From a virus, in the IMG/VR virus record IMGVR_UViG_3300008267_000054, positions 1 through 64,000 of that record: 64,000 nt of DNA; one strand, given 5' to 3'. Shown in pieces: positions 37 to 10,655 of the stretch. Numbering within the stretch: position 1 is the stretch's first letter; the number at the start of each line of letters is the position of its first letter. The notes beneath the pieces were generated by a model. That model was not told where the DNA came from and made no database searches. It was given only the letters and a program-made list of their open reading frames with translations. A program made the position numbers and the translations under genes.

Positions 37-44
37 TATTTATA
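37..44 (+). promoter_or_regulatory. Putative phage late-type promoter motif (TATTTATA)
   Basis: Exact TATTTATA octamer upstream of the structured RNA region. The same octamer recurs before transcription-unit heads across the window. If it is a -10-like element, the transcript would start near position 50. Its promoter role is inferred from position only. Confidence 0.55.
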
Positions 45-49
45 ATATA

Positions 50-915
50 ACAATCACGTTCTTTAACATCACAAGATTATCCGTTCAATCAACGGACTTC
101 GGTTCTAGATTGATAAAGATATATTGGCCGCTTATGGTCATTAAATAAACTGGGAAACCAGTATAAAGTGGATCTGCCATGATGAGGTAGATTTGCGGCT
201 TCGCAAGGAGCTTGAGTAAGCAAGCGAGATATCATTGGTCCTTAGTAGTCGAGGGTAACACTGTAGGCGAATTGGATTGGTGACTTGGCAATGTGGGTTG
301 TCAGGTTGAGCTCGGAAGAGCAATAAGAATAACTCGTAGGTGTATTGTAAGAAGTGTAGTTCATCTGACTGCATCATTACGCTCACCAATATAAGAGGCG
401 TCTTAAAACCGAAAGGTATGTAGGTGTACGAGTGGTGTCGTTACTTACCTTGAGATCGATTTACCAGAGTTGGTTTCTCGAAGAGGTCTTAAAGTATGGA
501 AGCAGGGATGTTTCAGAGAGTAGTTTGGTATTGATTCTGCCAAAAGCGGGGTCAGCTAAGTCGTTGGGCCACTACTTTCCTTATCCACAGTCGCTAACTA
601 AATTATGTAAATAATCGAAAAGCAAAAGTGCCCATCAGTCACCGACGAAAGGTGCCTACACAGTAATGGGTTGTCCATTGCCATCAGAGGTCGCAAGCCA
701 ATGGTGAATTGCTTGAAAGGTTTGTAGTCCCGCAAGGATTAATTAGCTCGGCAGAGTTGAACAGATTGAGTACAGTGAGAGTAGTCGAAATACAAGTGAC
801 TCAAGAAGTGGTTGGTCTAACCAACCGGCATTGTTAGGGTAGTACTCAAAAGGTACTGGACAAGAAGGGAAACAATAATCCAACAAAAGTCCTAACACTT
901 AAGCTGTAGTCTCAG
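50..915 (+). ncRNA. Probable giant structured non-coding RNA (GOLLD/ROOL-like class)
   Basis: About 860 nt without a credible gene, visibly richer in G than its surroundings. Helices that can be paired by eye: 81-85/91-95, whose loop 86-90 also pairs with 108-112 (pseudoknot); 125-129/136-140; 149-153/158-162 with a GAAA loop; 172-178/186-192; 193-197/202-206; 210-213/218-221; 310-313/318-321 with a GGAA loop; 332-338/427-433 enclosing 379-384/395-401 and a GAAA hairpin at 408-417; 447-451/483-487 enclosing 452-455/476-479 and 463-466/471-474; 631-635/666-670 enclosing 640-643/651-654; 675-680/699-704; 766-771/799-804; 810-815/821-826; 832-838/891-897 enclosing 841-845/853-857. It is followed by a tRNA and a terminator. 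Size and tRNA linkage match the known phage-associated GOLLD (about 800 nt) and, less well, ROOL RNAs. Family membership is inferred, and both ends are approximate. Confidence 0.75.
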
Positions 916-933
916 GCTTCTATTATGGTACAT

Positions 934-1005
934 CGCGGGATAGAGCAGAGGTAGCTCGTCAGGCTCATAACCTGAAGGCCGAAGGTTCGAATCCTTCTCC
1001 CGCAA
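934..1005 (+). tRNA. tRNA-Met(CAU), initiator type (tRNA-fMet)
   Basis: Full cloverleaf: acceptor strands 934-940 and 998-1004, D arm with GAGC/GCTC, anticodon arm with loop CTCATAA, T arm GAAGG/CCTTC around TTCGAAT. The first acceptor pair is C934 with A1004, which cannot pair; this C1-A72 mismatch is the hallmark of bacterial initiator tRNA. The anticodon stem has two of the three usual initiator G-C pairs below the loop, the third being A-U. No CCA is encoded. It lies about 20 nt after the structured RNA and just before a terminator, so both may be on one transcript. Confidence 0.9.
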
Positions 1006-1011
1006 CTAATT

Positions 1012-1037
1012 AGCCCTTCTAACACAAGGGCTTTTTT
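1012..1037 (+). terminator. Rho-independent terminator
   Basis: Stem AGCCCTT (1012-1018) with AAGGGCT (1026-1032), 7-nt loop, then a run of six T. It closes the RNA plus tRNA-fMet unit and separates it from tRNA-Glu. Confidence 0.85.
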
Positions 1038-1054
1038 CTTGTTCTTTGACACAT

Positions 1055-8301: not shown

Positions 8302-8997
8302 ATGATAAAATGGTGCAATTATGAGTGGCTTACACAAGAAAGGTGGGGTCAAATCCATCCTGAGAAGAGTTTTTGTTGGTATGATCCATCCTGTGTTGAG
8401 GTGGATCAATCTGGACTTTTACATTTAAGAACTAAGTTTAATCCAAAGTATTTTGAACACATTAAAACTACTTCTACGGTAGGGATTGGACTAGTATCTT
8501 GTACAACAAAGTTCCGTCACGGTATATTTGAGATAGAGGCTAAGTTGCCGGTTGGAGAAGATCTTTGGCCTGCATTTTGGATGTACAGCTTTGATTCATG
8601 GCCACCTGAAATTGATGTCATTGAAGCCTACACTGTTAAAAGAGGTACCTATCTTAGTCCAAGCATATTTCCGTTAAGTTTGTGGGATGTTAAAACCAAC
8701 CTACATTATGGACTTGATCCTGATCGTAAAAGTATAAGAGCTAAAAAACACTTTTGGGGATGGAAAAATCCAGCTCATCACTTTATAAAGTATAGATTAG
8801 AGTGGCGTCCTGACTGTATTAAATGGTATTACAACGACTATCTTGTTAGATCCATAGTAGATCCTAAAATACTAGCTGAGTTTAATAAAACTACTCTAAA
8901 TGTGATTATAAACAATGGAGTTGATTACACTGTAAATCAACTAGTACCTCCTAAATCAGATTTTGTTATTAGTTCCTTTACATACAAATCCATCTAA
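8302..8997 (+). CDS. Glycoside hydrolase family 16-like glycanase
   Basis: 231 aa, single-domain size. GH16 enzymes are beta-jellyroll endo-glycanases acting on beta-glucans, agarans and carrageenans. The active-site signature E-x-D-x-x-E is intact as E103-I-D-V-I-E108, preceded by the typical FRHGIFEIEAKLPVG and LWPAFWMYS and followed by later Trp-rich substrate-cleft segments (HFWGWKNP; YRLEWRPDCIKWYYND). There is no signal peptide, so it either acts after lysis, is part of the virion, or is exported in another way. It converges with the glycosyltransferase gene and overlaps it by 42 nt. Role inferred: degradation of host capsule or matrix glycan. Confidence 0.85.
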   Translation: MIKWCNYEWLTQERWGQIHPEKSFCWYDPSCVEVDQSGLLHLRTKFNPKYFEHIKTTSTVGIGLVSCTTKFRHGIFEIEAKLPVGEDLWPAFWMYSFDSWPPEIDVIEAYTVKRGTYLSPSIFPLSLWDVKTNLHYGLDPDRKSIRAKKHFWGWKNPAHHFIKYRLEWRPDCIKWYYNDYLVRSIVDPKILAEFNKTTLNVIINNGVDYTVNQLVPPKSDFVISSFTYKSI

Positions 8998-10112: not shown

Positions 10113-10655
10113 ATGAAGTATGTTATTATGATTGTAGCAATGCTACTATCAATTAATACCTTCGCCCAGGTAGAATTATTAGGAACAGCGGATGGGCAGG
10201 TTAGTAGGCTAACTGACAATATTCTGTATGACATAGTACAGACTGATCAGTATGGTAAGGTTTTAGCTACAATAGAACCTAAAGAGACTAGCTTTTTTAT
10301 ATACTCTGATTCTCTTTATTCACTACTGAGCATTACACAAATCTATAATGGTTGCATAACTAGCAACGCTGGTGATTATGATTACTGGTTAGTCGAGCGT
10401 ACAAGCAATGTAGATCCTTTAGTCTACCCAAATCCTACTACAGGACAGTTATTTGTAGCTCTTAATGTGTTGAGTGAGGACTTATTTGTATCAATTTACG
10501 ATATACAACTAAGACAAATGGTATCGCAGAAATTAACAGATTTTATTAGCACTGTGAACATAAGTAGCTTATCGGAAGGTACGTATCTTCTTGATATAAG
10601 AAATAAAAATCAAACTTTTAAAACAACAAAAATATGTTTAGTAAAAAACAAATAG
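10113..10655 (+). CDS. Secreted protein with T9SS type A C-terminal sorting domain
   Basis: 180 aa. Sec signal peptide, residues 1-18, with cleavage before Q19 (NTFA-Q). The central region is short and unrecognised. From about residue 103 the sequence is a type IX secretion system type A sorting domain: LVYPNPTTGQLFV, a middle beta strand VSIYDIQLRQM, then ISSLSEGTYLLDIRN and a final Lys-rich strand (TTKICLVKNK). In Bacteroidota this domain directs passage through the outer membrane by the gliding/Por machinery and cell-surface attachment. The phage protein is thus probably displayed on or secreted by the host. It overlaps the next gene by 22 nt. Confidence 0.88.
   Translation: MKYVIMIVAMLLSINTFAQVELLGTADGQVSRLTDNILYDIVQTDQYGKVLATIEPKETSFFIYSDSLYSLLSITQIYNGCITSNAGDYDYWLVERTSNVDPLVYPNPTTGQLFVALNVLSEDLFVSIYDIQLRQMVSQKLTDFISTVNISSLSEGTYLLDIRNKNQTFKTTKICLVKNK

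Follow-up and report, generated by a model that had tools for sequence, protein, structure and literature searches.

A full-length GOLLD RNA, most likely of a Bacteroidota phage, in a unit that may be organized like a small rRNA operon

The window, by which we mean the whole stretch of 64,000 nucleotides (nt) analyzed, covers the beginning of an IMG/VR virus record (IMGVR_UViG_3300008267_000054) of 116,439 bases that has a terminase and a T4-like portal. Between positions 35 and 1037 it holds a promoter-like box, a boxA-like motif, a giant RNA, a tRNA-fMet, and an intrinsic terminator, all on the plus strand, as is the second boxA-like motif described below. Scanning with cmscan and Rfam 15 matched positions 516 to 918 to the GOLLD model (RF02032) over its complete length (model positions 1 to 416) at 261.5 bits, the curated cutoff being 150 bits; the E values in two runs were 2.5e-73 and 7.7e-75. 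The ROOL model gave no match in positions 1 to 2000, even at E ≤ 0.1. The original prediction had offered two alternatives, a Bacteroidota-phage member of a known giant-RNA family (GOLLD or ROOL) or a new class, and had named the Rfam models of both families as the means of deciding. Because the full RF02032 model matched and ROOL did not, the first alternative was right, and of the two families it is GOLLD. The giant RNA of the window is thus a full-length member of this known phage family. GOLLDs are encoded by phages or prophages near tRNA genes, and the window has three tRNAs. GOLLD transcripts rise during phage lysis, and the foremost suggestion in print is that they hold or sequester a cargo. 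The statement that some 860 nt here contain no credible gene was borne out: the longest open reading frame in positions 1 to 930 has 82 codons for amino acids and is antisense. With that, and with sequence variation that is driven by structure, a protein gene in the region was ruled out.

Relatives were gathered by three motif scans of viral contigs and one clade-specific scan. RF02032 scored over its cutoff in 65 of the 77 records tested before the last scan, by which time 92 loci had been retrieved, nearly all through the GOLLD-motif scans. The collected loci are mutually related, and their counts are not counts of independent events. Along the whole RNA, the window can be aligned with 44 relatives from phage contigs, which are 60 to 70% identical to it. 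Among the named isolates in the phage collection, tRNA-only matches apart, the close GOLLD kin were just two uncultured phages of ∼640 kb. Two matches were in genome contigs: L124 was put aside, on its sequence context, as a probable chance match, and the genome of L125 matched neither GOLLD nor the covariance model R1 described below.

The Rfam GOLLD model represents the 3′ domain alone. The ∼400 nt upstream of the match (about 110 to 515) are a genuine GOLLD 5′ domain, being conserved in 45 aligned sequences, containing significant covariation, and including the subdomain of R1, which has matches in huge-phage and marine GOLLDs. A separate, more variable 5′ domain of ∼400 nt is a trait of GOLLDs, and by analogy with the solved env-38 RNA this one is probably the cap domain. 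R1 models the subdomain at 224 to 337. Compensatory changes were found in 25 of its 31 pairs; shuffles gave 17.4, and sliding the pairing gave 13 or fewer. R1 gave strong matches in the two ∼640-kb phages and weak ones in 32 marine GOLLD loci (E values of 1e-5 to 4e-4), and it had no match in the Lactobacillales GOLLD loci. Upstream of this subdomain, the hairpin loop at 130 to 135 pairs with 216 to 221; all six pairs are formed in 30 of 30 sequences, with covariation at 131-220 and 132-219, and the pairing may be either intra- or intermolecular.

We analyzed the fold of the whole RNA in two ways. Positions 110 to 918 folded at −243.3 kcal/mol versus −216.5 ± 9.3 kcal/mol for shuffled sequences (z, −2.9; none of 20 shuffles equaled it). 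For covariation, a tree was built from 30 dereplicated sequences and substitutions were simulated along it as a structure-blind null; the test is our own, modeled on R-scape, and its E values are therefore approximate. Thirty-two pairs covaried significantly at E ≤ 0.05, six of them exactly at the threshold, and nearly all fit helices or long-range contacts; 15 of the 32 are within the 5′ domain. All are standard pairs in the window and are paired in 93 to 100% of the sequences, except the leader pair 103-109 (80%). The covariation-supported RNAalifold consensus has ∼40 helices. Four long-range helices (130 to 135 with 216 to 221, 565 to 569 with 630 to 634, 652 to 656 with 827 to 831, and 858 to 861 with 909 to 912) form in every one of the 30 sequences, and each includes one or more covarying pairs. 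The many local helices seen by eye in the original prediction are in keeping with both analyses. Its GAAA and GGAA hairpin loops are real and conserved: GAAA at 154 to 157 is present in 30 of 30 sequences, GGAA at 314 to 317 in 29 of 30, and GAAA is the commonest form at 411 to 414. The nested domains fared less evenly. The one at 832 to 897 stands, helix 832-838/891-897 enclosing two hairpins, but 332 to 433 and 631 to 670 are not domains in the conserved structure, in which 339 to 350 pairs instead with 377 to 387, 395 to 404 with 481 to 490, 637 to 643 with 795 to 801, and 652 to 656 with 827 to 831.

The 3′ domain (516 to 918) has the variable linker that is usual in this part of GOLLDs, an A/T-rich segment at about 580 to 619 where the model alignment is gapped and conservation is low. 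It would correspond to nt 497 to 538 of the env-38 GOLLD, a linker that is disordered inside the cage formed by that RNA (PMC12286853). The strand at 858 to 861 pairs with the terminal hairpin loop at 909 to 912, with covariation at 861-909. This is probably the contact of terminal loop L27 with linker J24/26, which is characteristic of GOLLDs and is present in the solved env-38 RNA (PMC12286853), the stem names having been mapped onto the window by inference. GOLLDs also have a palindromic kissing loop, L21a (bridge B8), that switches between GC and CG. The loop at 731 to 735, tentatively placed as L21a, is CGCAA in 26 of 30 sequences; its central GC is kept, and a GC/CG switch was not seen. 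The window RNA and the env-38 GOLLD (cryo-EM; PMC12286853) both have a complete 3′ domain and a separate 5′ domain (about 400 and 420 nt, respectively), their total lengths are about 810 and 833 nt, and the linker is in the corresponding place. The env-38 locus has a Met-tRNA upstream, whereas the tRNA-fMet of the window is just downstream; the boxA-like motif of the window leader may be a further difference.

The tRNA-fMet (CAT; 934 to 1006) begins 15 nt past the GOLLD 3′ end. It has the C1:A72 mismatch typical of initiator tRNAs and no encoded CCA; its first base is unpaired in the predicted fold, and the tRNA looks intact. The terminator of the GOLLD-tRNA unit follows at 1012 to 1037, with a hairpin (1012 to 1032) and a T-run, so the RNA is framed at this end by a tRNA and a strong terminator as had been described. 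The description of the RNA and the initiator tRNA as one unit is supported by the relatives. In the window's clade, the start of a tRNA or a recognizable remnant is in most cases no more than about 50 nt from the GOLLD 3′ end, and the identity of this first tRNA varies (Met, Gly, Thr, or Leu). Degenerate tRNAs in the clade include one with a six-base anticodon loop (L057), shortened ones (L102, L105, L113, and L108), ones with altered T-loops (L098, L109, and L120), and one with a D-loop insert (L112). Among the Lactobacillales prophages, the anticodon arm is gone in L018, and in L009, L012, L022, and L024 the middle is aberrant but the acceptor stem and T-arm can still be recognized (in L022 by reading only).

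Using a simple detector, we found an acceptor stem plus T-arm behind GOLLD in 28 of 36 distinct clade loci, 7 of 7 distinct Lactobacillales loci, and one of the two huge phages. By comparison, the detector was positive in none of nine marine loci, and its rates were 5.5% for random windows and 2.8% for shuffles. The detector chose implausible acceptor strands in L004, L102, L105, and L113. Most of the undetected clade loci hold remnants by eye (an unscored reading), L045 being doubtful; reading of L030 and L061 revealed no tRNA or remnant adjoining GOLLD. Predicted folding supported the window tRNA, L108, L109, and L018 (z, −1.9 to −3.3), the best fold of L018 not being a clean cloverleaf. The three shortest remnants (L102, L105, and L113) were weakly stable (z, −0.7 to −1.5), folding no better than shuffled sequences, and the predicted minimum-energy fold of L113 kept the T-arm and not the acceptor stem; the case for these minihelices therefore comes mainly from their sequences. 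The marine GOLLDs had no tRNA at the 3′ end, and nearly all had an intrinsic terminator there; L093 had neither. Because these GOLLDs, L030, and L061 have no adjoining tRNA, a tRNA is not essential to GOLLD.

Other elements recur around these loci. ARAGORN called tmRNA genes no farther than about 1.3 kb from GOLLD, upstream in L061, L094, L096, L097, L116, L118, and L121 and downstream in L074, and tmRNA may therefore belong to the same stable-RNA region. Insertions of roughly 20 to 50 nt are present in the D-loops of tRNA-like genes beside GOLLD in L001 and L002 (tRNA-Glu-like) and in L112 (after GOLLD). An element resembling TTCGTAGTGGTTT is common to L066, L102, L105, L108, L111, and L112, downstream of the tRNA or remnant, and GATGAAAGATACTCGGT, with small variations, occurs just upstream of the boxA-like motif in L030, L061, L109, L113, and L120.

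At the other end of the unit, the promoter-like octamer had been put at 37 to 44; such a box is present but is better placed at 35 to 42, where TATATTTA has one mismatch (7 of 8 positions) from the Bacteroidota −7 consensus TAnnTTTG, its upstream context being limited because the contig begins at window position 1. Of 44 distinct relatives, 28 have TAnnTTTG no more than 75 nt ahead of their boxA-like motif; the rate in shuffles was 4%. The motif in the window leader, GTTCTTTAA (58 to 66), belongs to GTTCTTTRA, which follows the promoter and precedes the RNA in 43 of 45 clade loci and in 13 of 13 distinct marine GOLLDs. The exact motif was missing from the leaders of the clade members L003 and L114 (2 of 45) and was not found in the Lactobacillales GOLLD leaders or in L002. 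A second copy, GTTCTTTGA (1041 to 1049), is directly 5′ of a tRNA-Glu unit (1055 to 1129), which suggests a separate stable-RNA unit at 1041 to 1129. The G form of GTTCTTTRA is the sequence present in Bacteroidota 16S rRNA leaders; like a boxA, the motif is shared with the rRNA leaders of the likely host and is sited in the leader of an RNA. We take the motif to be boxA, which serves NusB-S10 as its site in rRNA antitermination (PMC4807359, PMC10931766), and it may act as an antitermination site here. Nothing relevant on boxA together with GOLLD was found in the literature searched.

Several other readings of these features were weighed. That the region is ROOL or a new giant-RNA class, and not GOLLD, might be argued from the Rfam GOLLD model spanning just its 3′ half. 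We consider this next to impossible: the full-model score is far above the cutoff, ROOL is absent at E ≤ 0.1, and a covariance model of part of the 5′ half also picks up the 5′ half of marine GOLLDs. On the full RF02032 match and these R1 matches, both candidates were ruled out. The leader motif is more debatable, since GTTCTTTRA could be a promoter element or transcription-start feature of these phages and not a boxA in the RNA; the TTTG core of the motif resembles the −7 consensus, and TAnnTTTG, where found, is often just about 13 to 40 nt upstream. However, GTTCTTTGA was present 120 to 220 nt before 16S in six of the eight Bacteroidota rRNA leaders fetched, and the only copies on the plus strand of the window are those ahead of the two stable-RNA units. 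In 89 phage loci, a tally in which related loci are counted repeatedly, GTTCTTTRA had 78 occurrences a short distance ahead of GOLLD, 32 ahead of tRNA or tmRNA genes, and 47 in other places; it was enriched before these three kinds of gene only and was at background level elsewhere. Eight anagram control motifs in the same loci gave no occurrences before GOLLD and at most one before tRNAs. These distributions make a promoter element improbable.

The role of the tRNA is more evenly contested. The GOLLD may merely lie in a phage stable-RNA or tRNA island, with the tRNA purely translational and the degenerate ones decaying pseudogenes that have no role in processing. The linkage of GOLLD to tRNAs has long been known, the tRNA of the window is intact by appearance, and further tRNAs lie downstream in many relatives. 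The passages on GOLLD in PMC6582537 report a pseudo-tRNA within a mycobacterial GOLLD, which means that the decay of a tRNA at this RNA has a precedent; those passages do not describe any processing of GOLLD by RNase P. Against an island, the first tRNA keeps its closeness to the GOLLD end though its identity changes, and degenerate forms in two very different phage groups tend to retain the acceptor stem and T-arm while losing the anticodon or D arm. We therefore put the island somewhat below an even chance. From the recurrent close tRNA and its decay mainly to acceptor stem and T-arm, we propose that RNase P, by cutting at the tRNA, defines where GOLLD ends at its 3′ side, for which the odds seem about even. 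An acceptor stem and T-arm, as in an RNase P substrate, come right after the GOLLD end, and the predicted site in the window is between 933 and 934.

The phage host is most likely a member of the Bacteroidota, as had been suggested, because four features of the window and its relatives point that way: a T9SS domain, the terminases of Flavobacterium phages as nearest kin, TAnnTTTG in the relatives, and the leader motif shared with Bacteroidota rRNA. The nearest named terminases match at 54%. The phage protein encoded at 10113 to 10652 has a Por secretion system (T9SS) C-terminal sorting domain (PF18962; E value, 3.4e-12). A glycosyl hydrolase family 16 protein (PF00722) is encoded at 8302 to 8994, beside other secreted-looking proteins. 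Three terminase relatives, Flavobacterium phage immuto, Microcystis phage Mel-JY01, and LR756508, had no GOLLD detectable with RF02032 or R1; GOLLD therefore seems to be patchily distributed.

Marine IMG/VR GOLLDs (e.g., L029, L034, and L070) share with the window the 3′ domain, a homologous 5′ subdomain, the boxA-like leader, and the TAnnTTTG promoter but nearly always have an intrinsic terminator close to GOLLD and never a tRNA there. Lactobacillales prophage GOLLDs (L008 to L028) share the 3′ domain and a tRNA or remnant 7 to 21 nt past the 3′ end but have no R1 match and no GTTCTTTRA found in the leader. ROOL resembles the window RNA in size range and in its linkage to phages and tRNAs and forms cages in vitro (PMC12286853), but it is a different family. 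Leaders of bacterial rRNA operons, like the window, combine a promoter, boxA, a long structured RNA, and a tRNA in one transcript; unlike them, the window unit has no ribosomal RNA, and Nus action in it is putative.

The best explanation, to which we give a probability of about 0.75, is a full-length GOLLD of a likely Bacteroidota phage that is organized like a small rRNA operon. Transcription by the host RNA polymerase would start at the Bacteroidota-type promoter near 35 to 42, and the boxA at 58 to 66 in the nascent leader would recruit host NusB-S10. Such recruitment would allow processive synthesis of a long untranslated RNA that folds as it emerges, like pre-rRNA. The RNA folds into its 5′ (110 to 515) and 3′ (516 to 918) domains, and covariation backs their helices and several of their long-range contacts. 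RNase P would then excise the tRNA-fMet at 933/934 and so fix the GOLLD 3′ end as well, as the placement of the tRNA and the decayed tRNAs suggest. By homology with the env-38 GOLLD, a 14-mer cage (PMC12286853), the mature RNA may assemble into a closed multimeric cage with the linker at 580 to 619 inside.

What looks new is a GOLLD laid out like an rRNA gene, with a host-style antitermination signal before it and a tRNA behind it that may cut its end; no such rRNA-like layout was found for GOLLD in the literature searched. It seems to us a balanced question whether GOLLDs as a family are made like rRNA, the phages borrowing host boxA/Nus antitermination and using a tRNA, sometimes a bare acceptor stem and T-arm, as an RNase P 3′ tag. 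The added sequences, from likely Bacteroidota phages including the two of about 640 kb, make covariation checks of the 5′ domain and the long-range contacts possible. Few known RNA structures are as striking as the GOLLD cages. From this locus and its relatives comes a concrete and testable picture of how GOLLD may be transcribed and trimmed; it would tie GOLLD to the rRNA machinery of the host and could explain its long-noted linkage to tRNAs.
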